A DNA stretch of 64,000 nucleotides. Source: Hufsiella ginkgonis. GTDB taxonomy: Bacteria > Bacteroidota > Bacteroidia > Sphingobacteriales > Sphingobacteriaceae. Both the position numbers and the translations under genes were made by a program. Below are positions 12,412 through 35,641 of the stretch, piece after piece. Each line of letters starts with the position of its first letter. Position 1 is the stretch's first letter. Below the pieces are notes generated by a model. The model did not search any database and was not told the DNA's origin. It saw only the letters and a program-made list of their open reading frames with translations. The stretch lies in the NCBI RefSeq assembly GCF_009834915.1, contig NZ_WVHS01000004.1:248001-312000 (forward strand), read 5' to 3'.

Positions 12412-15105
12412 CTAAAGCACCCTCCTCACCTGCACCCCGTTCAGGACCGCCTCCCCTTTTCTCGCTGTAAAGTCGATCACAATCCCCGCTGTTCCCTTTA
12501 CGCTCACGGTTGTTTTGGTAGCGTATGCCCGCTCGGGCTCCAGGTAAGTAGCGGTACCGAGATTTTCCAGCCAGGGTACATTATTTAGCTTTACATCAAA
12601 AATTCGGGTCGCCGCTTCCTCGTTTTGCGTGGTGTTCGAAAGGTTGTACACCAGGGCCTCCCGTTTAATTCCTGATACCAGCTCGGCAAACAGCAAGGTC
12701 ACCTCGTACTCCCCTGCCGGTACATCGAGCTTAAACTGGCTTAGCCCGGTGCGCTGGGTTTCGTAGATCGGGTCATCTTCGGTACCAAGGATGTCTTTAT
12801 TCGAGCCGTAGCTCTGGCTTCCGCCCTTCATGGCGAACGCCTGTCCGCCAACATACCCCCAGCTCCCGGGTGTATAGGCCTGTTCCGGGAGCCAAACCTG
12901 CCGCAGCTTTTCGTCGGCGTAGTAACGCTTCGAGCCAAGGCTCACGTTAATCTCCCGGAAAGGCAGCGCGGCGCTCCGCAGGTCTTTGGGGATCATTTTA
13001 AACTGTATCCTGAGTTGGTCGGCCAGGTCTGTGCCCGCCGAAGCATCCAGCAAATTCACGCCATCTGCGAACGGGACGTTAAACCGGGCGATACCCTGCC
13101 GGGCGGCGGCGGTACCGATCAGTTTGCCGTTCAACCGCAGAGAAACCGACGGCTGGTTGGTAAATACTTCCACGGGCTGCACACATACCAGCGACGTTTC
13201 GGAGGCGGCGATCCCGCTGCGTAGCGTCCAGGCGGCCGCGCCGATGCGGATAAACGGCTGCTTTAACAGGTTCGCCTGGTAAAACAGGTACGGATCTTTA
13301 GGCTGCCTGTCGATGGTGGTAATGCCTTTATTATTGATGTGGGGCATTGCTTCCGCCCGCTGTTCAGAGTTAAAATCCGCCAGGTTCCAGATCATCGCAC
13401 CGGCAACAAAAGGCCGCTCCATAATGGCTTCCAGGTAAGCCTGGTGATACAGCAAGGTGTATTCCAGCGACTTATCAAATTTAACCGGTTCGAAGCTATG
13501 GATGCGCGGATCTCCATCCGCTCCGTACTCCGTAACCAGCAGGGGCTTATCGGGAAGCTCTTTATGGTGCATGTCCAGGTATTTCGCAAACCCGCCCAGT
13601 TCGCCGCCATACCAGCCCTGGTAGAGGTTCCAACCTACCAGTTTCGGGATCCTTGTCAAGCCCGCTTTATGATAGAGCTCGAAAGCCCCATGGTTGGGGA
13701 TCATGGTATACCTCGACGGGTCTTCAGCCCGGGTGAGGTCTTCCAGTTCCTGCGCAAGCTTCGCCACGGCACGGATGTAAGCTTCGCGTTTTTCGGAGCC
13801 ATTGTCATAACGCGGGCGCAGCAATACTTCGTTCATGTAGGTCCACATGATCACCGACGGATGGTTGTAGTTTTGCCGGATCATCTCGCGCTGCATTACC
13901 TTGCAGTTCTCTGCAAACGCCTCGCTTTCTGTAATTTGGTTCACTACCGGGATTTCCACCGAAGTAAGGATCCCCAGCCTGTCGCAAGCCTGTAATACGG
14001 CCGGGTCCTGCGGGTAATGCGCCACACGCAGGAAATTGCCTCCCATGGCCTTCAGCAGTTCCACGTCGCGGATCGCCATGGCATCGGGCAGTGCATTGGC
14101 CATGTCTTTAAAATCCTGGTGACGGCTGGTTCCTACCAGCTTTACCGGCTGGCCGTTCAGGAAAAAACCTTTTCCCGGGTCGAACACGTACCAACGGAAG
14201 CCTAAGGGGTTCGATATTTCGTCGAGCTTAACTTTGGTATCGGCGTCCTCAAGCCTGGAGATCACCTGGTAGAGGTACGGCGTTTCCGGCGACCAAAGAT
14301 GCGGGCTTAGCAGGTTGGAAAGGTTATGCGAAAAACTTAGCTGAGCCCCGGGCACCGTTTTCACCATGGATTGCTGCTCGGCCACCGTTTTTCCGTCGCC
14401 GTCTACGATCGTAGTACGAACCCGTACCCTGCCCGCTTTAGGCAAATTGCTAACGAAGCTGCCTTTTACCATTACATCGGCGCTGCCCGCGGTCACTTTT
14501 GGCGTGCTTACAAAAACGCCGTTGGTGGCATTGTTGTCCATATCAAAATGTACCGGGCTTACAGCAACCAGGTGTACGTCGCGGTACAATCCGCCGAAAA
14601 ATGTAAAGTCCGCCGATAATGGCGGAACATCCTCGTTATGGCTGTTGTTTACTTTAACCTGGATCTCGTTCACCGCGCTGCCCGATGCTGCGAACTGCAG
14701 CAGTTCCTTTACGGGAACGCTAAAAAACGTATAGCTCCCGGTATGCCCGCCGGCTTTCTTTCCGTTCACATACACCTCGGCTGCCTGCGCGGCTCCTTCA
14801 AAATACAGGTAAATATCCTTGCCTTTCCAGGAGGAAGGAACAAAGATGCGGCGTTGGTACCAGCCTGTGCCGCGGTAGTAGCCGGGCTCATCGTCCAGTA
14901 CATCGGTCGTGTTCCAGCTATGCGGTACGGAAACGGTCTCCCATTTTACCGTCGCCGGTGAGGCAGGGAACCCCGGGAGATCGCCTTTGTAAAATTGCCA
15001 GTTGGAGTTGATGGTTTGGGAGATGCGGTCTTGTGCTTCGACAGTTGAAAGTACGGCCAGCAAACATACCAGGCTCAGTAGAAATCGGATCGGTCTTTTA
15101 ATCAT
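12412..15105 (-). CDS. Glycoside hydrolase family 2 enzyme with C-terminal malectin domain
   Basis: 897 residues from MIKRPIRFLLSLVCLL, a signal peptide ending near VEAQ (25). A GH2 jelly-roll domain (30-180), immunoglobulin-like domain (185-305) and TIM barrel follow. The acid/base is Glu426 in WTYMNEVLL and the nucleophile is Glu526 in LLVTEYGAD. After an additional beta domain, residues about 735-897 form a malectin-like di-glucose-binding domain (INVSLGSKRYYADEKL, YEVTLLFAE, VPWLENLG, GEAVLNGVQVRRV). GH2 covers beta-galactosidase, glucuronidase and mannosidase; specificity cannot be read here. A further Met 19 codons upstream is not preceded by a leader and was not used. It is the last enzyme of the glycan locus, 82 bases after the receptor gene. 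Confidence 0.92.
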   Translation of the reverse strand: MIKRPIRFLLSLVCLLAVLSTVEAQDRISQTINSNWQFYKGDLPGFPASPATVKWETVSVPHSWNTTDVLDDEPGYYRGTGWYQRRIFVPSSWKGKDIYLYFEGAAQAAEVYVNGKKAGGHTGSYTFFSVPVKELLQFAASGSAVNEIQVKVNNSHNEDVPPLSADFTFFGGLYRDVHLVAVSPVHFDMDNNATNGVFVSTPKVTAGSADVMVKGSFVSNLPKAGRVRVRTTIVDGDGKTVAEQQSMVKTVPGAQLSFSHNLSNLLSPHLWSPETPYLYQVISRLEDADTKVKLDEISNPLGFRWYVFDPGKGFFLNGQPVKLVGTSRHQDFKDMANALPDAMAIRDVELLKAMGGNFLRVAHYPQDPAVLQACDRLGILTSVEIPVVNQITESEAFAENCKVMQREMIRQNYNHPSVIMWTYMNEVLLRPRYDNGSEKREAYIRAVAKLAQELEDLTRAEDPSRYTMIPNHGAFELYHKAGLTRIPKLVGWNLYQGWYGGELGGFAKYLDMHHKELPDKPLLVTEYGADGDPRIHSFEPVKFDKSLEYTLLYHQAYLEAIMERPFVAGAMIWNLADFNSEQRAEAMPHINNKGITTIDRQPKDPYLFYQANLLKQPFIRIGAAAWTLRSGIAASETSLVCVQPVEVFTNQPSVSLRLNGKLIGTAAARQGIARFNVPFADGVNLLDASAGTDLADQLRIQFKMIPKDLRSAALPFREINVSLGSKRYYADEKLRQVWLPEQAYTPGSWGYVGGQAFAMKGGSQSYGSNKDILGTEDDPIYETQRTGLSQFKLDVPAGEYEVTLLFAELVSGIKREALVYNLSNTTQNEEAATRIFDVKLNNVPWLENLGTATYLEPERAYATKTTVSVKGTAGIVIDFTARKGEAVLNGVQVRRVL

Positions 15106-15187
15106 GGCTATTGTCTTTCGCCGGATAAGTTTTTCGTTGTTCTGAATCAATTTAAGGTTCATTCGTACGATAAATCATCTTGCATTA

Positions 15188-17092
15188 CTAATTTTCCAGT
15201 ACAAGCTTGCTCCATCCTGCCTCCCCGGCATTTTTGAGCTCTTTTTTCCGGTCTTCCATCACTTTCTTGATCCTGATACCGTATGCCCAACAAGTGCTTT
15301 GGCGGATAGAAAGGATCTCGGAAAGCTTATGCGAGGAGATCTTCCCCTTAGAGGAATAAATCAGGAAGATCATATAAAACGCCTTGTTGATGGGGATGCG
15401 GCAATTTTGCAGGATGGTGTTGGTGGTCACCGACTCTTCGTAGCCGCATTTGGCGCACCGGTGACTAAACTGCAGGTGCCCGTGGATAGAATGCATTCCG
15501 CCGCATTTCCGGCAAGCATATCCCTTACCCCATTTAAGATCCGCCAGGAACCGGGAACAGGTTTCGTTGTCCGGGTAGATCTTGCTGAACTCGGTAAAAT
15601 CCACCTCGAGCGACATTACCCGGGCGCGCGTTACCTTATCGATATTTTCGTGCAGCTCCTGGTTATCCTGCTCCAGCAGCGTGTTCATCCGCGTAATTTC
15701 TTCTGCTTGTTGTTTCAGCAGGTCGTTCACGGCGAGCAGCTCGTGGTTCTGCGCCTCGATGATAGTCGACTTTTCGATCACCTCCCGTGTGCGCTCAAGC
15801 ACTTCCGATTCGAGCTTTTTGTTCAGGGCATCTTTCAGGTCCTCGTTGATCTTCATCTGCTGGAAGATCCTCCGCTGCACCTTTTCTTTCTTCTTTCTTA
15901 ACAACCTCACCCTGTCGCCGATGGCGAACGATACAAAAACCATTTCTGTAACAAAGCAAAAGCTAAGGCTATAATGGGTTACCGGTCCAAATGGGATCCA
16001 GTCGAGATCGAACGCGATGAGCGTCTTAATCACAAAGCCAATGAGCAGGAAGCTATACCCGAGCACGAAAAACCGCGCCGGACGGTACCCTGCGTTAAAC
16101 ACGTACCAACCTGAAAAATAGGCCACCAGCAACGGAAGGGCTTCGATGATCTTATAGTTGAACCAGTTGCGATTTACCAGCAGGCAAGCCAGCAAAAAGA
16201 GCGTGCGCAGTGCGATGGTGCCAATTAGCAGTTTATCGAGCTGTGGCGCTTTTGAACGGAGGTACAATAGTTTCCTGGTAAATAACAGGGCGAAAGTACT
16301 GGCCAGGTATAGGGCTATGCCATACGCATACTGGTTCCAGCCCGGGGAATTGGGCCATAAATATTGGTACGCCACACCATCGGCGCTCATTTCATACAAG
16401 CCGATGCTCAGGTTATACAAGATATAGTATACGTACTGGCTCTGCCGCATGGCAAAAAACATCATGAGGTTGTAGAAGCTGAATACCAGGATCATCCCGT
16501 AAAACACGCCGAAGAAAAAATACTCGTCAAGCGCATATTGGATAAACCAGTTCACAGAACGGAGCACCACGATCACGTTGGCCTGCTGGTGCGATTTGAT
16601 GCGGATATAATAAACCTGCTCGCCTGTAAGCGAATTATCCAGGATCAGCGTAAAGTTCTTGTGGTGATATTGCCTGATGTTAAACGGCCGCTTGTTCCCG
16701 AAGCTGGTCTTTCGGAAAATATGGTCCTTACCCGGCGAAAACACGGCGATATCGTCTATCGTCTGATCGAAAAACTCGAGGATCCACTGCCGTTCGGTAT
16801 GTTTGGCGCGCCTGATCTTGACCCTGAACCAATAGGCAGAACGGATATTAAAGTTTTTCGGCGTCGAGAGCTCGCTTCCTTTAAACGAATGTGCCAGCGG
16901 ACCGGTTACCTGTCCGAGCGTGAATTTGCTTTGCGGGTCTTCCAGGTACTCGATCTCTTTGTACGAGAAAATATGCTCATCCAGGCTGTCGCTATAGTTT
17001 ACCACCTGCTGCGCCCGCAACTGCCGGGGAACGGCCATTATCCCCAAAAATATCCACAAACAAAACAAGCCCGTCCTGTACATCATCCTCAT
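15188..17092 (-). CDS. 7TM receptor (7TMR-DISM) fused to an IS1595-type transposase zinc ribbon
   Basis: 634 residues from MRMMYRTGLFCLWIF with a signal peptide. Residues about 40-180 are a 7TMR-DISMED2 extracellular beta domain (YWFRVKIRR, WILEFFDQTIDDIAVF). Seven membrane helices span about 190-395, and a long coiled coil runs from 400-490. Residues 500-634 match the N-terminal DNA-binding part of IS1595 transposases: FSKIYPDNETCSRFLADLKW, then Cys527/Cys530 (CRKC) and Cys546/Cys549 (CAKC), then TNTILQNCRIPINKAFYMIFLIYSS and the helix-turn-helix KISSHKLSEILSI. The DDE catalytic (ISXO2-like) domain is absent. The architecture suggests a membrane receptor with a domesticated transposase module as DNA- or protein-binding output. 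It follows the multiheme cytochrome by 10 bases, inside the glycan operon. Upstream in-frame Mets overlap the cytochrome gene and precede no leader. Confidence 0.88.
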   Translation of the reverse strand: MRMMYRTGLFCLWIFLGIMAVPRQLRAQQVVNYSDSLDEHIFSYKEIEYLEDPQSKFTLGQVTGPLAHSFKGSELSTPKNFNIRSAYWFRVKIRRAKHTERQWILEFFDQTIDDIAVFSPGKDHIFRKTSFGNKRPFNIRQYHHKNFTLILDNSLTGEQVYYIRIKSHQQANVIVVLRSVNWFIQYALDEYFFFGVFYGMILVFSFYNLMMFFAMRQSQYVYYILYNLSIGLYEMSADGVAYQYLWPNSPGWNQYAYGIALYLASTFALLFTRKLLYLRSKAPQLDKLLIGTIALRTLFLLACLLVNRNWFNYKIIEALPLLVAYFSGWYVFNAGYRPARFFVLGYSFLLIGFVIKTLIAFDLDWIPFGPVTHYSLSFCFVTEMVFVSFAIGDRVRLLRKKKEKVQRRIFQQMKINEDLKDALNKKLESEVLERTREVIEKSTIIEAQNHELLAVNDLLKQQAEEITRMNTLLEQDNQELHENIDKVTRARVMSLEVDFTEFSKIYPDNETCSRFLADLKWGKGYACRKCGGMHSIHGHLQFSHRCAKCGYEESVTTNTILQNCRIPINKAFYMIFLIYSSKGKISSHKLSEILSIRQSTCWAYGIRIKKVMEDRKKELKNAGEAGWSKLVLEN

Positions 17093-17102
17093 TTTAAAAA
17101 AC

Positions 17103-18335
17103 TTAACGCACATCGCCGGAACTGGCTGCGGGCGGGCGGCCGTTAACACCGTCTTTCCCGTACACCGCAATGCGATGCGTTCTCAATAAATAGGGTGTAA
17201 CCCCTTCTTTCCCGGCCACTTTAAAAGTGATCACTTTCGACGGTTGCTGCGGCATATGGCAATCGATACAATTCGCCTTCATCACAGCGGGAGTTAATCC
17301 CACCGCCGCATGCGAAGCCGCATTGTGGCAGCTCATACATTTCTGCGAATATAGTGCAAGACTGGCATTCGCACCATCGTGTGCGTCGTGACAAGAAAGG
17401 CAGTCCATGGTTTTCGCTTCGCGGAAGCACTTACTGGCCGCCAGCATCTGCACCTGTTTGCCATGTACATCCGCTTCGCGGGACGTTGCGGCGCCGAACT
17501 GCAGGATGTAGAATTGCGATAACGTGTCGCCCGGGCGGAAGCCAAAAGTGGAGCGCTGCGATTCGAGGTCGTTGCCCGAATGACAAACCCCGCAGGTCTC
17601 CAGCCGCCGCTGCCGGCTCAACGAACGATAGGCTACCATAAACTTCGCCTTCTTTTCTTCGGGATGGGCGAGATGAAACTCCACATGTGTTTTCGCCGGA
17701 CCGTGACAGCGCTCACAATCGATCCCCGCGATAAATGAGCCTTTTTCCATCTCTTCGGCCACTTTCAGGGCGCCATCCTGTACAAAATTCTGCCCGATAA
17801 ACGAGCTATGGCACTCGAGGCATTTGCTTTGAACCACCCGGTCGTAGTACATCAGGTTGGGTACGTAACCCGGGCTGTTCGCCCAGCCGTTCACCTGTTT
17901 GAAATACGAAAGCGGCAGCTGGAACAGCCGTTTTCCCTTCCAATAGGCGTATGTTTGCGCATGTGCGCCCGAGCCGATCTTCAGGTCGAAACGTTCTTTG
18001 CGCACTTCCCTGCCATCATAGTATCCTACCTGGTAAATACCGCTATCGCGTTTTTCCACGCGGATCTTTGTCAGGTCGTTAAAAGCGAACAGGGGATCGG
18101 CGCCCATCACATGTTCGAGGCCTTTGGCGCTGTCGATCATCATCGACGTCTGGTTATGTGCGGTATGAAAGTAAGAAGCCGCAACTCCTGCGTGGCATTT
18201 TTTACAGCTTTGGGCGCCGGCATATTCGGCTCCCCGCGGGTCCTCCCGGGCAAACCCGTCCATGCACTGTGAAAATGCCACTACCAGCAGCATGATCGGG
18301 CCCAGCACCAGGAACAAACGGGTAGCTCCTTTCAT
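17103..18335 (-). CDS. Exported seven-heme c-type cytochrome
   Basis: 410 residues with an N-terminal hydrophobic leader (MKGATRLFLVLGPIMLLVVAFSQC; Cys24 might be lipid-anchored although the lipobox is imperfect). Seven CxxCH heme-attachment motifs are present in order: CKKCH, CLECH, CERCH, CGVCH, CLSCH, CMSCH, CIDCH; the first Cys is residue 44. The middle part (GAHAQTYAYWKGKRLFQLPLSYF, GWANSPGY) resembles the 'cytochrome c family protein' group of periplasmic or surface multiheme proteins used for electron transfer. It lies 11 bases after the GH5 gene and 10 before the 7TM receptor on one transcript, a striking place for a redox protein. The electron donor and acceptor are unknown. Confidence 0.9.
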   Translation of the reverse strand: MKGATRLFLVLGPIMLLVVAFSQCMDGFAREDPRGAEYAGAQSCKKCHAGVAASYFHTAHNQTSMMIDSAKGLEHVMGADPLFAFNDLTKIRVEKRDSGIYQVGYYDGREVRKERFDLKIGSGAHAQTYAYWKGKRLFQLPLSYFKQVNGWANSPGYVPNLMYYDRVVQSKCLECHSSFIGQNFVQDGALKVAEEMEKGSFIAGIDCERCHGPAKTHVEFHLAHPEEKKAKFMVAYRSLSRQRRLETCGVCHSGNDLESQRSTFGFRPGDTLSQFYILQFGAATSREADVHGKQVQMLAASKCFREAKTMDCLSCHDAHDGANASLALYSQKCMSCHNAASHAAVGLTPAVMKANCIDCHMPQQPSKVITFKVAGKEGVTPYLLRTHRIAVYGKDGVNGRPPAASSGDVR

Positions 18336-18346
18336 GTTATGTAACG

Positions 18347-20101
18347 TTAGTTGGTAAACCGGATCTCGCTAAACCCGAATCCGCCGCTGTCGGCATAGAT
18401 CCTGATCACTTGTTTGCCCGCTTTAAGCGCCACGTTCTTTATTTCCACGAATGTAAAGTTCTTCTCGTTGCCGGTATTTGGAACGGCCACTTCTTTTGCA
18501 AACGTCACCTTCCCGCTGGAAACAGACAATTTCCCGTTCGCGTTATCGGCACAAACCCGCAGCCTGAGGTTGTATTTTCCCTTTTTGATTACATTAACGG
18601 TATACTGAAGCCATTCGCCTGCCTCGATACCGTTCACGAAATACTGTTCATAAAGGGTAGAATCTTTGCGGATGTCGACCCCATCGTTGCGGTACACCCG
18701 GCCCCGGTTACCCGGCGTGTTTTTACCGGTGGAAACATGGTAATCTGCCGTATCCTTGTCGAAATAAGCCACTCCATTCCTGCCCAGGTCAAAGTCGACC
18801 GCTTTAACCACGGCGCCTGGCATGATCTTGTTCGCTTTAAACGGTTTCGCGTCAGCAGAGAAAGGCTGCCGGAACATGGCGTCGAGCACATCACGGTGGA
18901 TGGTGGTATTTTCCAGCCGGGTATAGGTGGCCAGTTCCATCAAGCCGCTATAAGCATTACTTTCTTTCGGTTTCCCGGCGCCCGGACGACCGTTAAAGTA
19001 GTTTACCACCGCATCATAGTTCAGGTTCGAGCGGATCTCCATGGGGTTATTGAACCCGAGCTTTTTTAAAGGCCACCAGGCCCAGCCGATGTTGTTGGTC
19101 TCGAACAGGCGGATCGCCTCGGTAAACCAAACGTTCGAGTTCTCGCCGGTTTCGCCAAGCCACACCGGGATGTTGTATTCGTCGCGCATCTTTAGCATGT
19201 GGTTTACCGAGCCCGGATCATTATAGCTCCAGTACTTGTGAAAGCTCAGGGCCATGTTGTTATCCCAGGCGGGCAGGATCCCGTTATAGTTATTTCCCCA
19301 GCCGTTCCCTTCAATTACCACCAGGTGATTTTTATCTACCTCGCGTATCGCTTTGGTAATATCGACCATCAGCTTGCGCAGCGGCACATTCTTTTTCTCT
19401 TTGATGCCGTTCTTATCATTGGCCAGGTCTTCAAATCCCCAATTCGGCTCGTTAATAATATCATAAGCGCCTATCCAGGGCTCATTTACGTAGCGTTCCG
19501 CCAGCTTTCTCCACAAAGCGATCATTTTTTGCTGGTTGGCTTCACTTTCCCAAAGGGAGGGCTTGGAAGGGTCGCGGTCAGAAATATTGAGGTCGTTGCC
19601 TTGTCCGCCGGGCGCCGCATGTAAATCGAGGATGAGGTACATCCGGTTCGCTTTACACCAGGAAAGCAGGCTATCTGTAATAGCGAAGCCTTTTTCCAGC
19701 CAGGTATTTTTTCCGGCGACGGGTTCCTTGTCTGCGGGCAGCGTATACAGGTTAAAATGCATGGGCAACCTGATGGAATTAAATCCCCAGGCTTTCATCG
19801 AATCAACATCGGTCTTCCGGGTATGGTTAGCAAGCCAGAGGTTGTAAAACTCCTCCGTTTGTTTAGCCCCCATCAGTTCTTCGATCCTTTCGCGGATGCG
19901 GTATTGCTGCCCTTCGCGGTTAATCCGAAGCATATACCCTTCCTGTAACATCCAGCCGCCAAGCCCCATTCCGCGGAGCAACACATTCTCACCTTTACCG
20001 TTCACGATACGTTTACCATCGGCGTGCAAAAAGCCCTGGGCAGCCACCTGGATGGAGGTGATGCCGGCCAGGAAAAATAAAATGGTCAGTTTCTTTAACA
20101 T
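18347..20101 (-). CDS. Glycoside hydrolase family 5 with C-terminal CBM6/35-like domain
   Basis: 584 residues with a signal peptide (cleavage near VAAQG, 22). The GH5 cellulase-type TIM barrel starts with LLRGMGLGGWMLQEGYMLR and shows Glu218 (IINEPNW, acid/base) and Glu317 (WLGETGENS, nucleophile). Other barrel signatures are FNSIRLPMHF and LILDLHAAPGGQG. Residues about 440-584 form a jelly-roll carbohydrate-binding module of CBM6/35 type (GVAYFDKDTADYHVS, NGIEAGEWLQYTVNV, LRLRVCADNANGKLSV, FGFSEIRF). The likely substrate within this locus is a beta-glucan, but the GH5 subfamily cannot be settled by eye. The gene follows the GH55-like gene by 77 bases. Confidence 0.92.
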   Translation of the reverse strand: MLKKLTILFFLAGITSIQVAAQGFLHADGKRIVNGKGENVLLRGMGLGGWMLQEGYMLRINREGQQYRIRERIEELMGAKQTEEFYNLWLANHTRKTDVDSMKAWGFNSIRLPMHFNLYTLPADKEPVAGKNTWLEKGFAITDSLLSWCKANRMYLILDLHAAPGGQGNDLNISDRDPSKPSLWESEANQQKMIALWRKLAERYVNEPWIGAYDIINEPNWGFEDLANDKNGIKEKKNVPLRKLMVDITKAIREVDKNHLVVIEGNGWGNNYNGILPAWDNNMALSFHKYWSYNDPGSVNHMLKMRDEYNIPVWLGETGENSNVWFTEAIRLFETNNIGWAWWPLKKLGFNNPMEIRSNLNYDAVVNYFNGRPGAGKPKESNAYSGLMELATYTRLENTTIHRDVLDAMFRQPFSADAKPFKANKIMPGAVVKAVDFDLGRNGVAYFDKDTADYHVSTGKNTPGNRGRVYRNDGVDIRKDSTLYEQYFVNGIEAGEWLQYTVNVIKKGKYNLRLRVCADNANGKLSVSSGKVTFAKEVAVPNTGNEKNFTFVEIKNVALKAGKQVIRIYADSGGFGFSEIRFTN

Positions 20102-20178
20102 GTGCTAATAATTGGTCGTTGCGAACGCTAATAAATTGGTGTTCCAAAGGAACTAAATATGTACGTTAATCTGTTTAA

Positions 20179-23163
20179 CTACCGGATCTTTGTTTGGTAG
20201 AAGCCTGATCTTCCCGTAAAAAAGAGGTATTCCCTTTCTTTTCCGCCAAAGGCGATGGTTACCGGCCGTTCCGGTGTTTTTATCACGCCCGTTTGCTTCC
20301 CGGTTCTATCGAATACGTAGATCTCGCCATCGGCCACGTAGAGGTTGCCCTGCGCGTCCGTTGCAGAACTATACTCCCCATTTTCTACAAAGTAGGTTAG
20401 ATCTGACAAGTACCCTGCGGCGTCTACGCTGCATTTTACGGTGCGCTTGTCATATTCGTCCGCCAGGTATACCGGTTTCCCGGGGAATGCTTCCGCCAGC
20501 GAATTTGACCTGGCAAGATCGTACACTACCGGGATGATGGTTACACCGTCCGGCGCGACAAACGCTTCTTTTGGACGGGCTACGGTCACCGTGTTAAAAT
20601 CATGGTAATCGCGCCACCGGTTAGCCGGATACAGCGCTTTGTACACATCAGCGATCGAGCCCATTGGCACTTTCTTTAAAGCTGTCATAGTCTCCTCGGG
20701 ATGCTCCGGGTCTACCGAATATACCAGGGTACCGAAGCCTGAATTTCCCCAGCCGCTGAACGATGTCCCGCCGGCATCTTCCGGCAGCGGGAACACCTCC
20801 GGCTTGCCATTTACCAGGTAACCGGGTCGCGGAGTATACTTGAACACCACCAGCAACTGGTCATTTTTATCGCAGGCAAGGGAAAGCGGTTCCCACGGAA
20901 AGTCGGCCAGCAAACTCAGCGACCGGGACGCTGCCGACCATCTATAGATCCTTTTTAAGCGTGTTTCGCTAAAGTAAACGTTGCCCTTACTGTCGCTGCA
21001 CATCCCGTCGGCAAACTCAAAGCCTTTGGCCAGCAGCCGTACCTGCGCGGGGGAAGCCGGTACCGTGCTCTTATCCAGCTTCAGTCGAACAAACTCCCAG
21101 GGCCTGATCTCTTTATCAGAATTGATGTCGTAGATGGGCAGGGTGGTGGTATATTTTGTCTGGCTGTAGTTGTGCACGTTCAGGAACTCGATATTCTGCG
21201 GGTCCCAGGTCCTCACCCCGGCCGAAAACGGGGTGTTCACCCTGATCACCCGGAACATATACAGGTTGGCAAAAACCATATTGCTGCAATTGTCGAGCTC
21301 CACCGGCTGTGCATTGCTGCTTTCGCGGCTCTCCTCTTCGAGCTGGAGGGCGTAGATCTTCCAGTTCGATACATTTTTAAATCGTACTTCGTTGCGCACA
21401 TGGTGCTCCACAGACATGGCATAAATCCTTCCGGGTGTAGCTGTATTCGAAATATACATGCCAGATGTTGCGAAAGTATTGGCCGTCCAGATGTCTTTAA
21501 AAGTACCTCCGCCGCCGTTGGTGATCCATAAGCTCCAATATTGCGTATCCCAGGCTACGTCCATCCCCTGCAGTACCCGGGATGGCTGCTGGTTAAACCC
21601 GCTACCGCGGTTTTGGCTTCCTCCCTGCGGACCGGGACGGTTCATAGTGCCATGCCCGCCGATAAACTTTACATCGTTCATGTACGATTTTTCGCCTGCC
21701 ATCCACTTACAGGCTACCGCCCGATTATTCCAGGCGCCGGTAGAAAGCCCGATGCCGGTTAGAATATTGGTCCCGTTTACAGGCGCTTCCACCATGGCCT
21801 TCGGCTGACCGAAACTTCCAAAAGCTTCGGTATTATCCGCAAGGATAAATTGGGTAGCCACCGGGTTGAGCCCGATCAATACCGTATTGGGCTTTAACCT
21901 GATCGTTTCCGTTATCCGGTACCATCCCTGCGGCACATATACGGCCGGGTATTTATCTACGGCTTCCTGTATCGCCCTGGTGTCGTCCGTTTCGCCGTCG
22001 CCTTTTGCGCCCAGCGTTTTCAGGTTGGCCCAGGTTTGTATGGCAGGCAGTTCGGGAATATCTTTTACCGCTTCCGCGGGAAGTGCGTTCAGCTGGGTAA
22101 GATCTTCGGTGGTCTTAAATACCGGTGCCGCGTCGATCCCGTCGATATGAAGGCCGTAAATAAAGTTGCTGATGCGATAGATTGCGCCTTTTCCTGGCGT
22201 TTGCTTTCCGCTCCTGCGGTAGCTGGCCAGCACAGGCACGTTCCGGCACACCACATTACGCAGGCTCACCTGGTTAAACGCATTCCCTTCGTTGCTGATC
22301 ACGATCGCCGGGCCCGTCACTTTGTCGAACAGGCAGTCTTCCATGAACAGCTTCTCGTGGTAGTTTGGATCGATCTCGATCACCGTGGGTACATTCTTCG
22401 CCTGCAGGCGCACAATGGTCAAACCTGCTTCCTGGGTTTTTATGGCGGCCTTTCGTTGTCCTTCAAAATATGTATCCACCATCATATATTGCCATCCCGG
22501 CGACGGCTTGGTGGTATAGATCCCGTAGTCGCCGCCAAAGAAACGCACGTCTTCCATCTCGTTCCCCACATCGAACAGTCCCGCCTTGCCGTTGCCGATA
22601 TTCACATCCACATGGGCGATGAAGCTATGCTGCGCGAAATGTGCCCGGAGCGCCACCGCCGCCGGGTTGCCGTCTTCGATGCGGATATCCACGTTGGAAA
22701 GTGCGCTGTAGAATGTTCCTGCTCCCGCATCACGTGGCGATTGCCCTGGTTGAACTATCCCGCCGGTAAACCAGAAGAGGTATTTCGCCTGCCCTTTCAT
22801 GCCGGGGTCGGCTTCCCGGAAACCGGGAGAACTCTTTCCCAACACAAAAACCGGGCGATTTTTCCCGTATCCGATCACCCTCACGGCCTGCGGAATGCAG
22901 ATCGTTTTACTTAACAGGTAAGTGCCTTCGGGAATGAACAATACCCCGAAATTGTATTTGATCTTCACCTGGTTGATGGCCTCCTGCAATGCATCAGACA
23001 CATCGGCTTTGCCATCTGCGGAGATCTTAAAATTCCCGGGAGTGAAGTAAACGGCATCCGGGTCCCAGAGGCGTTGCTGGTAGAACGAACGGCTTTTCGG
23101 CGTGGCGGCTGCGGCCACAATCACGACCAGTAAACAGCAGCAGGTAACTAAAACTCTTTTCAT
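20179..23163 (-). CDS. GH55-like double beta-helix protein with C-terminal beta-propeller
   Basis: 994 residues with a signal peptide (LLVVIVAAAATPKS). Two right-handed beta-helix halves of the Pectate_lyase_3/GH55 type are seen. The first begins near residue 50 (ADVSDALQEAINQV, GVLFIPEGTYLLSKTICIP) and the second near 385 (LKTLGAKGDGETDDTRAIQEAV, AVYVPQGWYRITETI). Such a tandem is the GH55 exo-beta-1,3-glucanase layout. From about residue 720 an SMP-30/NHL-like propeller is added (GFEFADGMCSDSKGNVYFSE, YSSATDAQGNLYVADGEIYVFDRTGKQTGVI), which is not part of canonical GH55. The protein is probably exported and acts on or binds beta-1,3-glucan; activity is inferred from fold and context. Confidence 0.85.
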   Translation of the reverse strand: MKRVLVTCCCLLVVIVAAAATPKSRSFYQQRLWDPDAVYFTPGNFKISADGKADVSDALQEAINQVKIKYNFGVLFIPEGTYLLSKTICIPQAVRVIGYGKNRPVFVLGKSSPGFREADPGMKGQAKYLFWFTGGIVQPGQSPRDAGAGTFYSALSNVDIRIEDGNPAAVALRAHFAQHSFIAHVDVNIGNGKAGLFDVGNEMEDVRFFGGDYGIYTTKPSPGWQYMMVDTYFEGQRKAAIKTQEAGLTIVRLQAKNVPTVIEIDPNYHEKLFMEDCLFDKVTGPAIVISNEGNAFNQVSLRNVVCRNVPVLASYRRSGKQTPGKGAIYRISNFIYGLHIDGIDAAPVFKTTEDLTQLNALPAEAVKDIPELPAIQTWANLKTLGAKGDGETDDTRAIQEAVDKYPAVYVPQGWYRITETIRLKPNTVLIGLNPVATQFILADNTEAFGSFGQPKAMVEAPVNGTNILTGIGLSTGAWNNRAVACKWMAGEKSYMNDVKFIGGHGTMNRPGPQGGSQNRGSGFNQQPSRVLQGMDVAWDTQYWSLWITNGGGGTFKDIWTANTFATSGMYISNTATPGRIYAMSVEHHVRNEVRFKNVSNWKIYALQLEEESRESSNAQPVELDNCSNMVFANLYMFRVIRVNTPFSAGVRTWDPQNIEFLNVHNYSQTKYTTTLPIYDINSDKEIRPWEFVRLKLDKSTVPASPAQVRLLAKGFEFADGMCSDSKGNVYFSETRLKRIYRWSAASRSLSLLADFPWEPLSLACDKNDQLLVVFKYTPRPGYLVNGKPEVFPLPEDAGGTSFSGWGNSGFGTLVYSVDPEHPEETMTALKKVPMGSIADVYKALYPANRWRDYHDFNTVTVARPKEAFVAPDGVTIIPVVYDLARSNSLAEAFPGKPVYLADEYDKRTVKCSVDAAGYLSDLTYFVENGEYSSATDAQGNLYVADGEIYVFDRTGKQTGVIKTPERPVTIAFGGKEREYLFFTGRSGFYQTKIR

Positions 23164-23170
23164 TGCCCGG

Positions 23171-24583
23171 TTATTTCCAAACGTAAGTAGCTACCGCACC
23201 CCGCTCCAGCGTGGCTGCAGCCGTTTTTCCCTGGTACCGTATAGCGAAAACCTGTGCGGCCTGCCCGGCGTTGCATACGATCAGCACCTTTTTACCGTCG
23301 GGCGTTTTAAAGGCTACGTTGGGAAGGTTTTCCGGTTCCGGCGAGGCGATCCTGACGGAACCCGGCCGTACAAATTTCGATGCATGCGCCACCGAGTAAT
23401 AGGCCACGTTTCGTGTCACCAGGTCTTTATCGATCGTTACCGCGCCCTGGCACGATGGGCAGCCGCCCCTGTCTGTAAAGGGCCTGTTTTGCGGATCGGC
23501 GGCCAGGTTCCATTCCAGCACGTTGCGGCTCCAGTTGCGGGTAGCGCCAATGATCAGGCGCCGCACGGGTGAGCCGATGTTCAGCTGCTGGCTGTTGGGG
23601 CGCTCGGTCACCATCTGCTCGGTGAAATATATATTCTTATCGGGATGTGCGTTGTGTACATCGCTCAGCGCATCGATCGTACCGCCGTATAAGTGAAATC
23701 CCGACCCGTCAACATATTTGCGCGCCTCCGGATCGTCGAGGATAGAGATCGGGTAATCGGGCCGGTCGGCATTGTGGTCATAGATAATGATCTTAGTCTT
23801 GATCTCTTCAGCCCGGAACAGCGGGCCGAGGTACTGTTTAATAAAGATCGCCTGGTCCGGCGCCGGCATCAGCAAACTGGGATTGTTGCCCGGATGCAGC
23901 GGCTCGTTCTGGACCGTGATCGCATCGATGGTGATCCCCTCCGCTTTCATATCTTTAATGTATCGTGCCAGGTACTTCGCGTAGGCGCCGAAATACTCGG
24001 GGCGCAACATGCCGCCGCGGGCGTCGAAGCTGGTTTTCATCCATTCCGGCGGCGACCATGGTGAGCCCAGCACCTTGATCTTCGGGTTAATGGCCAGGAT
24101 CTCCTTCATCACGGGGATCACGTCGGCGCGGTCTAACCCAAGATCGAACTTCTTCATCTCCGGGTCTGTTTGCCCCTGCGGAAGATCGTTATAAGTAAAC
24201 ACCTTCTCATTCAGGTCTGACGCGCCGATGCTTAACCGCAGGTAACTGATGCCGATATTCTTCTCATCATAAGCGAACAACTCTTTTAACAAGGCGGCCC
24301 TCTTATCGGCGCTCATCCGCACAAGGTGCATGGCGCTTCCGCCCGTGAGGGCAAATCCGAACCCATCGATGGGCTGATATACCTGTTTTTCGTTCACCTC
24401 GATCACCGGTCCGGCTGCAGCAGTTTCTGTAAAGCTAAGTGCGGGCTGTTGCGCGAAAAGTGCGGAACGGTCCGGTTTGGTTAACCACAGATCAACCGTG
24501 CCTTTTTCCTGCGCCAGCACAGGGTTTACCGGCGACCCGAATATTGCTGCCGCGAAAAAGAAGATGCTGCCAAGACGTTTCAT
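23171..24583 (-). CDS. Glycoside hydrolase family 30 enzyme (copy A)
   Basis: 470 residues, signal peptide (NPVLAQ, 25). GH30 barrel plus C-terminal beta domain: QPIDGFGFALTGGSA (70-84), SIGASDLN, VLGSPWSPPEWMKTS (171-185), acid/base Glu227 in TVQNEPLHPG, nucleophile Glu322 in YFTEQMVTE, and the C-terminal HASKFVRPGSVRIAS. It is a close paralogue of copy C (26078-27550): both share IDGFG, NDxPxGQTD, IIIYDHNADRPDYP, and a Cys-x-x-Cys in the GGCxxC segment near residue 380. GH30 includes beta-1,6-glucanases, beta-glucosidases and glucosylceramidases; with GH16, GH3 and GH55-like neighbours, beta-1,6-glucanase is the best guess. Confidence 0.92.
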   Translation of the reverse strand: MKRLGSIFFFAAAIFGSPVNPVLAQEKGTVDLWLTKPDRSALFAQQPALSFTETAAAGPVIEVNEKQVYQPIDGFGFALTGGSAMHLVRMSADKRAALLKELFAYDEKNIGISYLRLSIGASDLNEKVFTYNDLPQGQTDPEMKKFDLGLDRADVIPVMKEILAINPKIKVLGSPWSPPEWMKTSFDARGGMLRPEYFGAYAKYLARYIKDMKAEGITIDAITVQNEPLHPGNNPSLLMPAPDQAIFIKQYLGPLFRAEEIKTKIIIYDHNADRPDYPISILDDPEARKYVDGSGFHLYGGTIDALSDVHNAHPDKNIYFTEQMVTERPNSQQLNIGSPVRRLIIGATRNWSRNVLEWNLAADPQNRPFTDRGGCPSCQGAVTIDKDLVTRNVAYYSVAHASKFVRPGSVRIASPEPENLPNVAFKTPDGKKVLIVCNAGQAAQVFAIRYQGKTAAATLERGAVATYVWK

Positions 24584-24588
24584 ACGTA

Positions 24589-26052
24589 TTATTGGATAAT
24601 GAACGTGGAAATAGAATGTGGTAAACTGGTGGCGTCAGCTGCCTTTCCGCCGATCCATAATTTATACGGGAGCTTTTCCGCGGTGCGGTTCATCACCACC
24701 ACGGCCAGCTTGCCGTCGGTGTTGATAAATGCGGTTGATATTAACTTATCGCGGTTTACCGAAGTGGCCACGCGTTTCGCGCCAGGGCGGATAAATTTGG
24801 AGAAATGGCCCATGTAATAATAAGCGTTGGTGTAGATCAGCTTGCCGGTTTTGGTATCTGCATGCAGCGGCGCAAAGCAGAAGTTACCTACGTGGTTCGG
24901 CCCGCCGGTCTCATCGAGCAACATGTTCCAATCGGTCCAACCCGCCGTACCGCTGTTAAAGTCGTTGATCATGGAGTAACCGTAACGTTCGCCCAGGCGC
25001 CATTGCATCATGCTGTCTACGTTAAATTTCTCGTTACAACCTTCGGTGAAGAACAGCTGCTTACCGGGATATGATTCGTGTACGCTTTTTACGTTGTTAA
25101 ACAGCATATCGCTGCCGGTCCAGAACTCGTACCAATGGTAGCCGATTCCCCATATATATTTTGCCGCCTGCGGATCACCCAGCAGCACGCTGGCCCGTTG
25201 CTGGATCAGGTCGCGGTTATGGTCCCAGGCGATCAGCTTCCTGGAGGCCATTCCTTGTTTCTGCAGTGTTGGCCCGAGAAAATTCTTGATAAAGTCGCGC
25301 TCTGCTTCGGCGGTAAAAACGCACGATTCCCACCGTTGGGTGGCCATAGGCTCGTTTTGCACGGAAAGGCCCCAAACCGGCATACCGCGTGATTCAACCG
25401 CTTTAATATATTTCACATAGTGATTAGCCCAGCTCTGCATAAATTCAGGCTTCAGCGTGCCGCCCTGCAGGCGGTTGTTGTTGGATTTCATCCAGGCGGG
25501 CGGGCTCCACGGACTAACAAACAGGGTCAGCTTACCTCCTGCCGCCTCGATGGCGCGTTTCATCAGCGGAAATTTGAACTTCTCGTCGTGTGCCACGCTG
25601 AACGTTTTCAATGCCGCATCGTTAACTTCTACGTAATCATACATATCGCTCGAAAAATCGCAGCTGGCGATATTGGTCCGCCCCAGCGTGAACCCGATAC
25701 CATTGGTACGGTCATAATAGGCTTTCAGGAATTCCGCCTGTGCCTCTTTCGGGAGCTTGGCAAAAGTTTCCGCGGTGGCGTCCGTCAGGCTTCCGCCGAT
25801 GCCCACCAGTGTTTGAAACGTGGTAACCGGGTCCACAAATACGGCCACCTGTGTTTCGAGCGGTTGCTTCAGGTCTTTGAACGTCAAAGTACCGGTATTC
25901 GAAATACGGAGGTCCGAATGATCGGCTGTGGTATACACCGTGGCCGTTTTATTTGCGATGGCGAAAGGCGGTTTTTTAACGGCAGTTTTCTGCTGCGCCT
26001 GTGCCAGGGAAGATGCGGCTAAAACCAAAAGAATAAAAGAGAACTGTTTCAT
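24589..26052 (-). CDS. Glycoside hydrolase family 30 enzyme (copy B, divergent)
   Basis: 487 residues with a signal peptide ending near SLAQAQ (20). GH30 motifs are VGIGGSLTDATAETFAKL (83-100), TLFVSPWSPPAWMKSNN, acid/base Glu234 in SVQNEPMAT, nucleophile Glu337 in FFTEGCNE, and the C-terminal HFSKFIRPGAKRVATS. It lacks the GGCxxC segment of copies A and C and has the G-x-G-G-S-x-T-D-A start of the GH30 glucosylceramidase-like group, so it probably has a different linkage or chain-length preference from its neighbours. It begins 25 bases after copy C and ends 5 bases before copy A, in one transcription unit. Confidence 0.92.
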   Translation of the reverse strand: MKQFSFILLVLAASSLAQAQQKTAVKKPPFAIANKTATVYTTADHSDLRISNTGTLTFKDLKQPLETQVAVFVDPVTTFQTLVGIGGSLTDATAETFAKLPKEAQAEFLKAYYDRTNGIGFTLGRTNIASCDFSSDMYDYVEVNDAALKTFSVAHDEKFKFPLMKRAIEAAGGKLTLFVSPWSPPAWMKSNNNRLQGGTLKPEFMQSWANHYVKYIKAVESRGMPVWGLSVQNEPMATQRWESCVFTAEAERDFIKNFLGPTLQKQGMASRKLIAWDHNRDLIQQRASVLLGDPQAAKYIWGIGYHWYEFWTGSDMLFNNVKSVHESYPGKQLFFTEGCNEKFNVDSMMQWRLGERYGYSMINDFNSGTAGWTDWNMLLDETGGPNHVGNFCFAPLHADTKTGKLIYTNAYYYMGHFSKFIRPGAKRVATSVNRDKLISTAFINTDGKLAVVVMNRTAEKLPYKLWIGGKAADATSLPHSISTFIIQ

Positions 26053-26077
26053 GTATATGTATGTGTGTGTTGCATGT

Positions 26078-27550
26078 TTACCAGGTGTAAGTTCCTACGG
26101 CGCCGCCTGCGAGGCTGCTCGTCACCAGTTTGCCATTAAATTTGATGTTAAAATTTTGCACGGTTGCCGACGTATTCAGCACGATGAGCACTTTTTTGCC
26201 TTCGGGCGTTTTAAACGCCACATTCGGGAGGCCGGCAGGCAGGTTACTGGCGATCCTTACCGATCCCGGGCGAACAAATTTCGACGCATGGGCGATCACG
26301 TAGTACGATACATTTTTCAAGACCGATGCACCCACCGTAAGCGCTCCCAGGCAGGTACTGCACCCGCCGGCTGTGTAGGGACGGTATAACGGATCGGCCG
26401 CCAGGTTCCACTCCAGTACATTGCGGCTCCAGTTGCGGGTAGCACCAATGACCAGGTTCTCTACGTGCCACTTCAGGTCGCCCGCAAAATTCCCCGGTCC
26501 GCCTACCCATTGCTCCGTAAAGTAAATGTTCTTGTCGGGATACGCATCGCGCACCTGCGATAATGCGCTGATGTTGCCGGCATACAGGTGGAAGGCCGAG
26601 CCGTCTACAAACGGCCTGGCTGCGGCATCGTTCAGGACGGTGAGGGGATAATCCGGGCGATCGGCATTATGGTCGTAAATAATGATCTTGGTTTGCAGGC
26701 CTGCGGCACGGAGCGCCGGGCCGAGGTGGTTTTTGATAAACGTAGCCTGTTCAGTGGCGGTCATCACCATACTTGGATTATTCCCGCCATGTAGCGGCTC
26801 ATTCTGCGGGGTAATGGCATCGATGGTGATGCCTTCGGCTTGCATTGCCTGGAGGTATTTTACGAAATACCGGGCATAGGTGGGATAATATTCCGGCTTA
26901 AGACTTCCCCCTACGAAAGCAGCGGAGGTTTTCATCCATAAGGGCGCCGACCATGGCGATCCCAGGATCTTCATGCCCGGGTAAATGGCAAGGATCTTTT
27001 TAAGCACGGGAACCAGGTCCGTTCTCTCCTTATCGATACTGAACTGCAGCAGGTCAGGATCGGTTTGCCCCACCGGGATGTCGTTGTATGTAAACGCCGA
27101 AGCGCTCAGGTCTGACGCACCGATGCTGATCCGGAGGTAACTTACCCCGATATAAGTACTATCTACGGCGAAGAGATCCCTCAAAACCGCGTCTTTCGCC
27201 GAAGCGGGCAAGGCATTGATCAGCGAAGCGCTGCCACCGGTAAGCGTATAGCCAAAACCGTCGATGGTTTGAAACGTTTGTGCCGTGTCTACTTCAACAG
27301 ACGGGAACTGGTTGGTTGTAGCGGTAAAAACAAGGCTCTCGTTCTGCTTCTGGAAGAGCGAAAACTGGTCGGGCGTGGTGAGCCAAAACGCGACATCGGT
27401 TTTCAGCGGCTTCACGGGTACGACAACCACGGGCGCTACCGGCGCGGGCTGATCGCCGTTACCGCTTTTTTTCTTGCAGCCCACAACAATAAACGGCACC
27501 AGGAGCAGGCACAGGAACAACGGCGCCAGGCTGATAATAGATCGTCTCAT
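26078..27550 (-). CDS. Glycoside hydrolase family 30 lipoprotein (copy C)
   Basis: 490 residues. N-terminal leader with a lipobox-like FIVVGC (Cys25), followed by a Lys/Ser/Gly and Pro/Val-rich linker, so the enzyme is likely tethered to the membrane, possibly at the cell surface. GH30 motifs: QTIDGFGYTLTGGSASL (94-110), ILGSPWSAPLWMKTS, acid/base Glu251 in TPQNEPLHGG, nucleophile Glu346 in YFTEQWVGG, C-terminal HASKFVRPGSVRIAS. Closely related to copy A, including the Cys-x-x-Cys (GGCSTC) segment. The lipid anchor suggests it attacks the polymer outside while copies A and B may work inside the periplasm; that division is inference. Confidence 0.92.
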   Translation of the reverse strand: MRRSIISLAPLFLCLLLVPFIVVGCKKKSGNGDQPAPVAPVVVVPVKPLKTDVAFWLTTPDQFSLFQKQNESLVFTATTNQFPSVEVDTAQTFQTIDGFGYTLTGGSASLINALPASAKDAVLRDLFAVDSTYIGVSYLRISIGASDLSASAFTYNDIPVGQTDPDLLQFSIDKERTDLVPVLKKILAIYPGMKILGSPWSAPLWMKTSAAFVGGSLKPEYYPTYARYFVKYLQAMQAEGITIDAITPQNEPLHGGNNPSMVMTATEQATFIKNHLGPALRAAGLQTKIIIYDHNADRPDYPLTVLNDAAARPFVDGSAFHLYAGNISALSQVRDAYPDKNIYFTEQWVGGPGNFAGDLKWHVENLVIGATRNWSRNVLEWNLAADPLYRPYTAGGCSTCLGALTVGASVLKNVSYYVIAHASKFVRPGSVRIASNLPAGLPNVAFKTPEGKKVLIVLNTSATVQNFNIKFNGKLVTSSLAGGAVGTYTW

Positions 27551-27559
27551 AGCGTTGCC

Positions 27560-29794
27560 TTATAGCAGTTCAAATTTGCTTTCGAGCAAAATCTTGTCCG
27601 AAGCCGTCCCGATCATCAGTTTAAACTCGCCCGGCTCGGTATCCCATTTCATTTGCGCGTTATAAAACGAAAGCTTCTCTTTATCGATGGTAAAGGTGAC
27701 CGTTTTACTTTCGCCCGCTTTCAGCATAACCTTTTCAAAGGCTTTCAGCTCTTTTACCGGCCGTGTTACGCTTGCAAATCGGTCCTGGAGATAAAGCTGC
27801 GCGACTTCCTCACCGGCGTATTTACCGGTATTGGTGAGGGTAAAGCTGGCCGTAAATGTTTCGTTATTCTTTACCTGGGTTTTACTGAGCTTCAGGTCGG
27901 TATAAGAGAAGGTGGTATAGCTGAGACCGAACCCAAACGCGAACCTTGGGCTGTTCGGCGAGTCGATATACGCGGAGCGATAAACGATGTCTTTGTCGCT
28001 GGTTGACGGGCGCCCGGTACTTTTCGAAGCGTAATAGATAGGAATTTGTCCCTCCGACCTCGGGAAAGTAATAGGGAGCTTGCCTGCAGGATTATAATCT
28101 CCGAAAAGGACATCCGCCATGGCATTCCCGGCCTCGCTGCCCAGCCACCAGGTGTATAAAATAGACGAAGCATTGTCTGCGGTCCAGTTAAAGATCAGCG
28201 GCCTGCCGGCCATTACCAGCACCACTACTGGCTTACCGGTGGCTACCAGGGCTTTAACGAGGTCCTCCTGTATTCCCGGCAGGTGAATATCGGCACGGCT
28301 TTTTGCTTCGCCGCTCATGTCGAACGCCTCACCTACGGCTACTATCGTTACATCCGCTTTTTTTGCGGCGGCCACCGCTTCGGCGAAACCGCTGCGGGTA
28401 GTGTCTTTAATGCCGCAGCCTTTGGAGTAGATCAGTTTAGATTCGCCGCCAAGCTTGTTCACCAGCCCGTCGTATAGGGAAACCAACTGGTCGTTATCCC
28501 ATTGTACGGACCAGAAGCCTTTCATATCGGTATTAGATTTTGCCAGCGGACCGATCACTGCAATAGCACCGACGTTTTTTGACAGCGGCAGCAGCTGGTT
28601 CGTATTTTTTAGCAATACGATACTTTTTGCGGCCACATCACGGGCCGCTTTGCGGTTTTTGGGCGAATTCAGCTCTTTTTCTTCCCGCTCCGCATTGCTG
28701 AAACGGTAGGGATCATCAAAGAGCCCCAGTTCAAATTTCTTGCGAAGCACGCGTTTCACGGCATCGTCTACCAGGGCGAGAGGCACTTTCTTATCGGCAA
28801 CCAGTTTAGCCAGGCTGCTTATGTAAGCGCGGCCTTCCATGTCCATGTCGCTTCCTGCCGTTAACGCCTGCCGGGCCGCTTCTGCGTTGTCTTTCGAATA
28901 ACCATGAGCGATCATTTCGCGGATAGAGCCCCAATCGCTTACCACGAACCCTTTAAAGCCCCATTTCCCTTTTAAGATATCGCGCTGCAGGTAGCTGTTC
29001 GCGGTAGCGGGAATGCCGTTCAGCTCGTTAAATGAATTCATGAAGGTGGCCGCACCGGCATCTAAGGCCGCTTTAAATGGCGGCAGGTATACTTCCCAAA
29101 GCATGCGGTCGCTCATATCTACGGTATTGTAATCACGGCCTGCCACTGCGGCGCCATATGCGGCGAAATGCTTGGCACAGGCCATAATGGCGTCCAGGTT
29201 TCCCAGGCCATTGCCCTGGAATCCTTTTACGCGGGCGGCAGCGATCAGCGATCCGAGGTACGGGTCTTCGCCGGCGCCTTCCATTACGCGTCCCCACCGG
29301 GGATCACGGGCAATATCCACCATGGGTGCAAAGGTCCAGTGCACACCGGCGGCCGCAGCTTCGCGTCCGGCAATGCGCGAGCCCAGCTCAATTGCTTCCA
29401 GGTCCCAGCTTGCCGCTTCAGCCAGCGGGATCGGGAATGTTACCCGGTAGCCATGGATCACGTCGAGCCCGAACAGCATCGGGATCTTCAGTCGTGACTG
29501 CATGGCGGCATCCTGAATAAAGCGCGTGTCTTTTGCGCCCCTCACATTGAGCATCGAGCCCAGTTTGCCTTGCTTAATTTCTTCGAGTTTGTTGCTGCCT
29601 TTACTGATCGGGCCGGTGGCGTCGCGGTCGCTGGTGTACTGGTTTAATTGCCCGATCTTTTCGTCAAGGGTCATCTTCGCCAGTAAGGCTTCTACCTTAA
29701 CGTCGATGGCATCTTTAACCGTTTTTTTTTGCGCGAAAAGAGGGATAGTAAAGCTAAGTAAAAGGAGGGAAACGGCTATTGCTCTATTGTTCAT
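27560..29794 (-). CDS. bglX: Glycoside hydrolase family 3 beta-glucosidase (BglX-like)
   Basis: 744 residues from MNNRAIAVSLLLLSF with a signal peptide ending near FAQ (22). GH3 N-terminal barrel with GLDVIHGYRVTFPIPLAEAASWD (109-131), KHFAAYG, and nucleophile Asp287 in KGFVVSDWGS. GH3 C-terminal alpha/beta sandwich with AARDVAAKSIVLLKN, then a fibronectin-III-like domain (GEEVAQLYLQDR, KELKAFEKVML). The domain order and D-V-I-H-G-Y match periplasmic BglX. It should release glucose from beta-gluco-oligosaccharides made by GH16/GH30. Earlier in-frame Mets lie inside the GH16 gene; the chosen ATG is one base past the GH16 stop, indicating coupling. Confidence 0.93.
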   Translation of the reverse strand: MNNRAIAVSLLLLSFTIPLFAQKKTVKDAIDVKVEALLAKMTLDEKIGQLNQYTSDRDATGPISKGSNKLEEIKQGKLGSMLNVRGAKDTRFIQDAAMQSRLKIPMLFGLDVIHGYRVTFPIPLAEAASWDLEAIELGSRIAGREAAAAGVHWTFAPMVDIARDPRWGRVMEGAGEDPYLGSLIAAARVKGFQGNGLGNLDAIMACAKHFAAYGAAVAGRDYNTVDMSDRMLWEVYLPPFKAALDAGAATFMNSFNELNGIPATANSYLQRDILKGKWGFKGFVVSDWGSIREMIAHGYSKDNAEAARQALTAGSDMDMEGRAYISSLAKLVADKKVPLALVDDAVKRVLRKKFELGLFDDPYRFSNAEREEKELNSPKNRKAARDVAAKSIVLLKNTNQLLPLSKNVGAIAVIGPLAKSNTDMKGFWSVQWDNDQLVSLYDGLVNKLGGESKLIYSKGCGIKDTTRSGFAEAVAAAKKADVTIVAVGEAFDMSGEAKSRADIHLPGIQEDLVKALVATGKPVVVLVMAGRPLIFNWTADNASSILYTWWLGSEAGNAMADVLFGDYNPAGKLPITFPRSEGQIPIYYASKSTGRPSTSDKDIVYRSAYIDSPNSPRFAFGFGLSYTTFSYTDLKLSKTQVKNNETFTASFTLTNTGKYAGEEVAQLYLQDRFASVTRPVKELKAFEKVMLKAGESKTVTFTIDKEKLSFYNAQMKWDTEPGEFKLMIGTASDKILLESKFELL

Positions 29795-29795
29795 T

Positions 29796-35480: not shown

Positions 35481-35511
35481 TAAAACTAGGGTAGTTTAAA
35501 ACAAAAAACAA
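35481..35511 (-). promoter_or_regulatory. Predicted promoter of the SusC-led operon
   Basis: On the minus strand TTG (35511-35509), 20 bases, then TAGTTTTA (35488-35481), seven of eight matches to TAnnTTTG at the proper spacing. The expected start would be near 35475, leaving a leader of about 55-60 bases before the ATG at 35417. Confidence 0.55.
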
Positions 35512-35540
35512 GAAAATATTTTCATAAAATGCTGACTAAT

Positions 35541-35567: not shown

Positions 35568-35641
35568 TTAGAACCGTAAGCTAATCGGGCTAAATATGTG
35601 ATAATCACTATAATTCGAATTAACCGGAGCCGACGTGTAAT

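Follow-up and report, generated by a model that had tools for sequence, protein, structure and literature searches.

A seven-helix membrane receptor ending in an IS1595-type zinc ribbon as a putative regulator of glycan operons in Bacteroidota

What does the DNA-recognition part of a transposase do at the end of a membrane receptor that is encoded within a glycan operon? The question is raised by a gene of Hufsiella ginkgonis located in the stretch of 64,000 nucleotides analyzed here (the window, to which all positions refer unless another genome is named). A preliminary description of this DNA had read the gene as a complete 7TMR-DISM receptor with a coiled coil, followed by the zinc ribbon and helix-turn-helix (HTH) of IS1595 transposases without the DDE nuclease, and had proposed it as an unusual one-component regulator of the operon. 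In our reading, to which we give a probability of roughly 0.8, the receptor is a membrane-anchored, one-component activator of glycan operons, comparable to SusR with an unrelated DNA-binding domain; its DNA binding, zinc, ligand and dimerisation are inferred, and so is the sign of regulation.

Architecture and conservation of the receptor

The receptor gene lies on the minus strand, with its ATG at 17092, its stop at 15188 and an open frame in between. Its features are the following:

15188..17092, minus strand: receptor gene, 634 aa, with 7TMR-DISM sensor, 7TM domain, long helix and IS1595-type zinc ribbon/HTH
16562..16960, minus strand: 7TMR-DISMED2 periplasmic sensor domain, aa 45-177 (Pfam PF07696, E 3e-27; beta-rich in the AlphaFold model)
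15911..16525, minus strand: 7TMR-DISM_7TM domain, aa 190-394 (Pfam PF07695, E 1e-44; seven helices in the AlphaFold model)
15620..15910, minus strand: cytoplasmic prolongation of the TM7 helix, aa 395-491, presumed to be a coiled coil (AlphaFold model)
15440..15574, minus strand: IS1595-type zinc ribbon, aa 507-551, with C527, C530, C546 and C549 (Pfam PF12760, Zn_ribbon_IS1595)
15251..15391, minus strand: HTH, aa 568-614, with the near-invariant SSHKLSE..IRQSTCW (conservation, profile matches, tail model)

The order of domains given in the preliminary description was thus recovered with Pfam and with a profile of the tail. The zinc ribbon is barely over the curated Pfam cut-off (26.7 bits versus 25.4). 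The protein ends about 20 aa past the HTH and, as had been stated, has no Pfam match to the catalytic domain of these transposases (DDE_Tnp_IS1595, PF12762, ISXO2-like). Histidine kinase, receiver and AraC domains were not found in the Pfam search of the receptor, nor was a SusR-type DNA-binding domain, and the IS1595 zinc ribbon is the sole domain of DNA-binding type in it. The usual outputs of 7TMR-DISM receptors are kinases, GGDEF domains and the like.

The full-length AlphaFold model, built with 30 relatives as input (mean pLDDT 80.6, pTM 0.58), presents a beta-rich periplasmic domain, seven transmembrane helices, a single helix from 375 to 491 and then the tail. The long helix prolongs TM7 into the cytoplasm, with low confidence at 476-496, and one heptad register is favoured along its cytoplasmic part; the continuous helix is modelled, and the coiled coil of the earlier proposal remains presumed. 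The tail modelled alone (pLDDT 86.8) forms short ribbon strands and then an HTH-like set of helices. A Foldseek search of the PDB with this model gave no significant solved match (best E 0.69), and no solved sequence relative of the tail was found, so the zinc site could not be compared with any structure.

Receptor matches at E 1e-60 or better are present in 111 of the 301 genomes of the window genome's own family, and nearly all those listed reach the C-terminal end (one of them covers only 4-457). Genome contigs place the receptor in Mucilaginibacter, Pedobacter, Pararcticibacter, Desertivirga and Arcticibacter, and also in Chitinophaga and Dyadobacter. H. ginkgonis itself encodes a single paralogue, with 51% identity over the whole length. 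A search of a second family (f8), started from a distant member, found matches in 54/118 genomes and 44/84 genera, with the CxxC..CxxC tail in 30/30 matches examined; a third family (f9) also carries the fusion. Fusions of full length are present in about 110 genomes of the first family and about 50 of the second. Among 92 distinct sequences the best conserved part is the tail (mean consensus 0.83, and 0.89 for the HTH), compared with 0.58 for the sensor and 0.74 for the 7TM domain, and the four cysteines of the zinc ribbon are 100% conserved. Judged from these sequences, the design is common across Bacteroidota and not an oddity of one strain.

Operon, DNA boxes and promoter

The receptor gene is the last but one of a closely packed beta-glucan operon, in which the intergenic gaps range from overlap to at most 77 bp. 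The order is susC, susD, GH16, GH3, three GH30, lyase-like, GH5-CBM6, CXXCH cytochrome-like, receptor and GH2:

32301..35417, minus strand: susC-like TonB-dependent transporter, with which the operon begins
30735..32282, minus strand: susD-like protein
18347..30665, minus strand: GH16, GH3, three GH30, pectate-lyase-like/SGL and GH5-CBM6 genes
17103..18335, minus strand: CXXCH multihaem cytochrome-like gene, preceding the receptor gene by 10 bp
12412..15162, minus strand: GH2 with malectin domain, which follows the receptor gene after 25 bp and closes the operon

For one of the GH30 proteins the closest PDB entry is 5ngk (E 1e-85), which we take to be a Bacteroides beta-1,6-glucanase, though the record is titled glucosylceramidase. 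Over 119 distinct receptors, the next same-strand gene downstream is susC in 60, GH30 in 20, GH2 in 4 and GH3 in 2. As SusD matches number 38 in the 5.2 Mb of the window genome, we estimate the chance adjacency of the receptor to a susC/susD pair at about one percent. Distances to the nearest SusD, taken for the genome's remaining 7TMR-DISM receptors, were considered as a control and dropped as too coarse. The link to a glycan operon suggested earlier holds (SusCD, GH30), and control of the genes is inferred. Homologues of the cytochrome-like gene lie beside GH30 genes in nine other receptor loci. A TPR histidine kinase without receiver or DNA-binding domain follows the GH2 gene after 182 bp (10181-12229, minus strand).

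In a discovery set of 60 receptor-susC intergenic regions, the strongest common word was AAGCGTATCA. Allowing slight degeneracy, it occurs 94 times on the susC strand and twice on the other, while shuffled sequences average 0.68 sites; two or more boxes are present in 40 of the 60 regions, usually 86-94 bp apart. Regions preceding the first PUL gene behind the receptor have 4.47 sites/kb (75/86 regions; 133 sites on the coding strand versus 2 on the other), compared with 0.03 sites/kb on the coding strand in 290 further intergenic regions from these loci and 0.11 in the receptor's own upstream region. The susC promoter of the window was outside the discovery set because the receptor gene is there about 15 kb from susC. 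It contains the following predicted elements:

35647..35656, minus strand: predicted binding box 1, AAGCGTATCA, upstream of susC (motif match; no binding data)
35559..35568, minus strand: predicted binding box 2, AAGCGTATCA, repeating box 1 in the same orientation at a distance of 88 bp (motif match; no binding data)
35481..35511, minus strand: predicted Bacteroidetes-type promoter, -33 (TTG) and -7 (TAGTTTTA), 47 bp after box 2

Both boxes fall within 35541-35656, the region that had been put forward as the target of the tail, and copy a motif that emerged, independently of them, from the receptor-linked promoters in other genomes; binding is inferred. In the 5.2-Mb window genome the strict double box has one match only, namely this promoter. 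It was found in 67/111 receptor-positive and 14/190 receptor-negative genomes (odds ratio 19, Fisher p 1.5e-23). This p-value is uncorrected for relatedness, and as both genomes and promoters are related, such values are overstated. The pattern read backwards, as a control, gave 4 matches in all in the 301 whole genomes; the 14 receptor-negative genomes with a double box are more than this control would suggest, and 44 of the 111 receptor-positive genomes are without a strict one. In receptor-positive genomes, 48 of 81 double boxes lie within 500 bp of the receptor gene. Several of those far from any receptor gene are upstream of GH30, susC or GH5, and one precedes an apparent chitinase, with the box conserved in two related genomes (L260, G269:C8:1000867; G293:C7:148714); the secreted protein that follows has a GH18 signature, read from the sequence of one genome.

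Other copies and neighbouring elements should be mentioned. The susC promoter of the paralogue (L162, G000:C12) has two boxes 232 bp apart, not about 90. A third AAGCGTATCA of the window (57277-57286, minus strand), at the overlap of two genes, is likely due to chance (0.72 expected per window). In the window susC promoter and its homologues there is a second conserved element, approximately CTATTAATCAGTTATTTA, 26-45 bp past the start of box 2 (35512-35558, minus strand), and a TGyGA-like stretch ahead of each box. In family f9, three loci were inspected, and two of them have AAGCGTAT on the expected strand. No exact AAGCGTATCA motif is present in family f8, where a family-specific search gave only a weak AAGCGN[AT]A trend; the recognition helix differs there (e.g. 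LRRNTIW versus IRQSTCW). The absence of the motif is consistent with a changed recognition code, which has not been shown, and it also limits generality.

It is possible, though unlikely, that the receptor is real and PUL-linked and the boxes are bound by another factor, PUL-specific or global, the tail serving for instance in protein contact or zinc sensing. There are no binding data for the tail on the boxes, a few receptor-less genomes have double boxes, f8 receptors go without the exact motif, and the TPR histidine kinase adjoins the window operon. However, the boxes track the receptor gene from genome to genome and adjoin it, no other regulator recurs at these loci among the genes labelled, and conservation within the protein peaks at the HTH, which would be natural for a domain that reads a conserved site. 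Recognition of the boxes by the tail is for us the better reading.

Regarding the promoter, the Bacteroidetes-type pattern (TTG, 18-22 nt, TAnnTTTG) was found after box 2 in 34 of 71 dereplicated cases, compared with 0.84 in shuffles and 1/71 upstream of box 1. The distance from box 2 to TTG is 35-37, 46-49 or 58-59 bp, mostly 46-48, so that the classes differ by roughly one turn of the helix. As the boxes are wholly upstream of -33, this layout suits an activator that touches the polymerase from upstream. There are no data on the sign of regulation, which leaves room for the receptor binding as proposed and acting as a repressor released by its ligand. We regard this as improbable, given that boxes about 47 bp off in helical-turn steps are a usual arrangement for activators and that the analogous PUL regulators SusR and HTCS are, as generally known, activators.

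Transposase origin of the tail

The profile of the tail aligned with IS1595-type transposases over about 120 aa, covering both the zinc ribbon and the HTH, with E down to 5e-22 and 1e-38. A better alignment to an unrelated zinc ribbon, or a fusion confined to one strain, would have refuted the reading of the preliminary description; neither was encountered. A maximum-likelihood tree was calculated from 135 alignment columns of 75 sequences, tails and transposase N-termini together, and rooted at the midpoint. In it, all receptor tails group with two short stand-alone ORFs in one clade (support 99/99), outside which IS1595 groups branch off one after another (99/83, 99/87). As the tails are nested in this way among the transposases, the simplest reading of the sequences is a single old capture, its direction being only inferred, since the root is a midpoint. 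The stand-alone ORFs, of 137 and 162 aa (L142:1194-1607, minus strand; L299), have the same zinc ribbon/HTH and could be relics or soluble regulators.

The absence of terminal repeats noted earlier was confirmed, in that no inverted-repeat pair of at least 14 nt brackets the gene, and the frame is open in many genomes, as for a stable fusion rather than an insertion. The only trace of an IS1595 DDE domain in the window genome is a 101-aa fragment (L131, G000:C19:534754-534897). This relic is all that speaks for a functionless transposase fragment fused by recent insertion or misassembly, an explanation that we reject as practically excluded, since the full length is conserved across genera in several families and the tail is its most conserved part. 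The terminal repeats of the closest IS1595 elements (G457, G118) were also compared with the boxes; candidates were few and nothing consistent appeared, and we do not claim that the motif derives from a transposon end.

In one genome (G030), a 1090-aa ORF (L200:15109-18381, minus strand) joins a Reg_prop/Y_Y_Y sensor to the same zinc-ribbon/HTH tail, with kinase, receiver and AraC domain absent. The same tail behind another sensor indicates, from this one sequence, a portable output whose sensor has been swapped. Nothing relevant to a receptor-transposase fusion or to IS1595 domestication was found in the open-access literature. This comparison covers that literature and the domain databases consulted, and the architecture could be listed elsewhere without study.

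Proposed mechanism and comparison with known systems

The observations can be joined in the following model. The periplasmic 7TMR-DISM domain would sense a ligand, inferred to be a glycan fragment and most likely one of beta-1,6/1,3-glucan. The signal would pass through the seven-helix domain to the modelled helix running on from TM7, which, as an inferred dimeric coiled coil, would reposition two C-terminal zinc-ribbon/HTH domains, captured, according to the tree probably once, from an IS1595-family transposase minus its nuclease. These two domains would then bind the two direct AAGCGTATCA boxes, which are observed in front of susC or GH genes with a spacing of about 90 bp, and the bound receptor would help RNA polymerase at the -33/-7 promoter, whose fixed distance is observed and whose activation is inferred. 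In the window, where gene spacing suggests that the receptor gene is inside the operon it would control, positive feedback may result.

It also seems probable to us, with somewhat less confidence, that these receptors are a further general class of PUL regulators in Bacteroidota beside SusR, HTCS and ECF sigma/anti-sigma systems: membrane one-component activators with a DNA-binding domain captured once from an IS1595 transposase, occasionally placed on another sensor, which would read paired AAGCGTATCA boxes at helical-turn distances from the promoter and coordinate the degradation of fungal cell-wall glucan (in some genomes chitin). If true, this would offer an explanation of how beta-glucan operons may be regulated in many soil Bacteroidota in the absence of the textbook regulators, and would be a clear bacterial example of a signalling receptor whose output is a domesticated DNA-recognition domain of a transposase. 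Because the predictions for boxes, promoter and regulon are exact to the base, the system is a ready experimental target.

With the SusR-like PUL regulators of Bacteroides the receptor shares two direct-repeat sites with a long spacer upstream of susC; for those regulators the predicted repeats are spaced by 67 or 77 bp and face the same side of the DNA (PMC3878776). It differs from them in its 7TMR-DISM sensor with seven transmembrane helices, in a DNA-binding domain of IS1595 origin and in its motif, and by analogy looks like an independent invention of the same site layout. With the HTCS it has in common that a PUL-linked membrane regulator is contained in one polypeptide and has direct-repeat sites, although predicted HTCS sites average 21 bp apart (PMC3878776) and the boxes about 90 bp; the L200 relative even has an HTCS-like sensor, whereas histidine kinase, receiver and AraC domain are lacking in the receptor. 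The sensor and 7TM domain, strong matches to their Pfam families, are those of 7TMR-DISM receptors, and unlike in the usual ones the output derives from a transposase; for an output that binds DNA on a 7TMR-DISM receptor, the ChiS-family domain (PMC8092284) is a precedent. Finally, with the IS1595-family transposases the receptor shares a zinc ribbon and HTH alignable over about 120 aa, and it is distinguished from them by the lack of nuclease and element ends and by a recurrent operon context.
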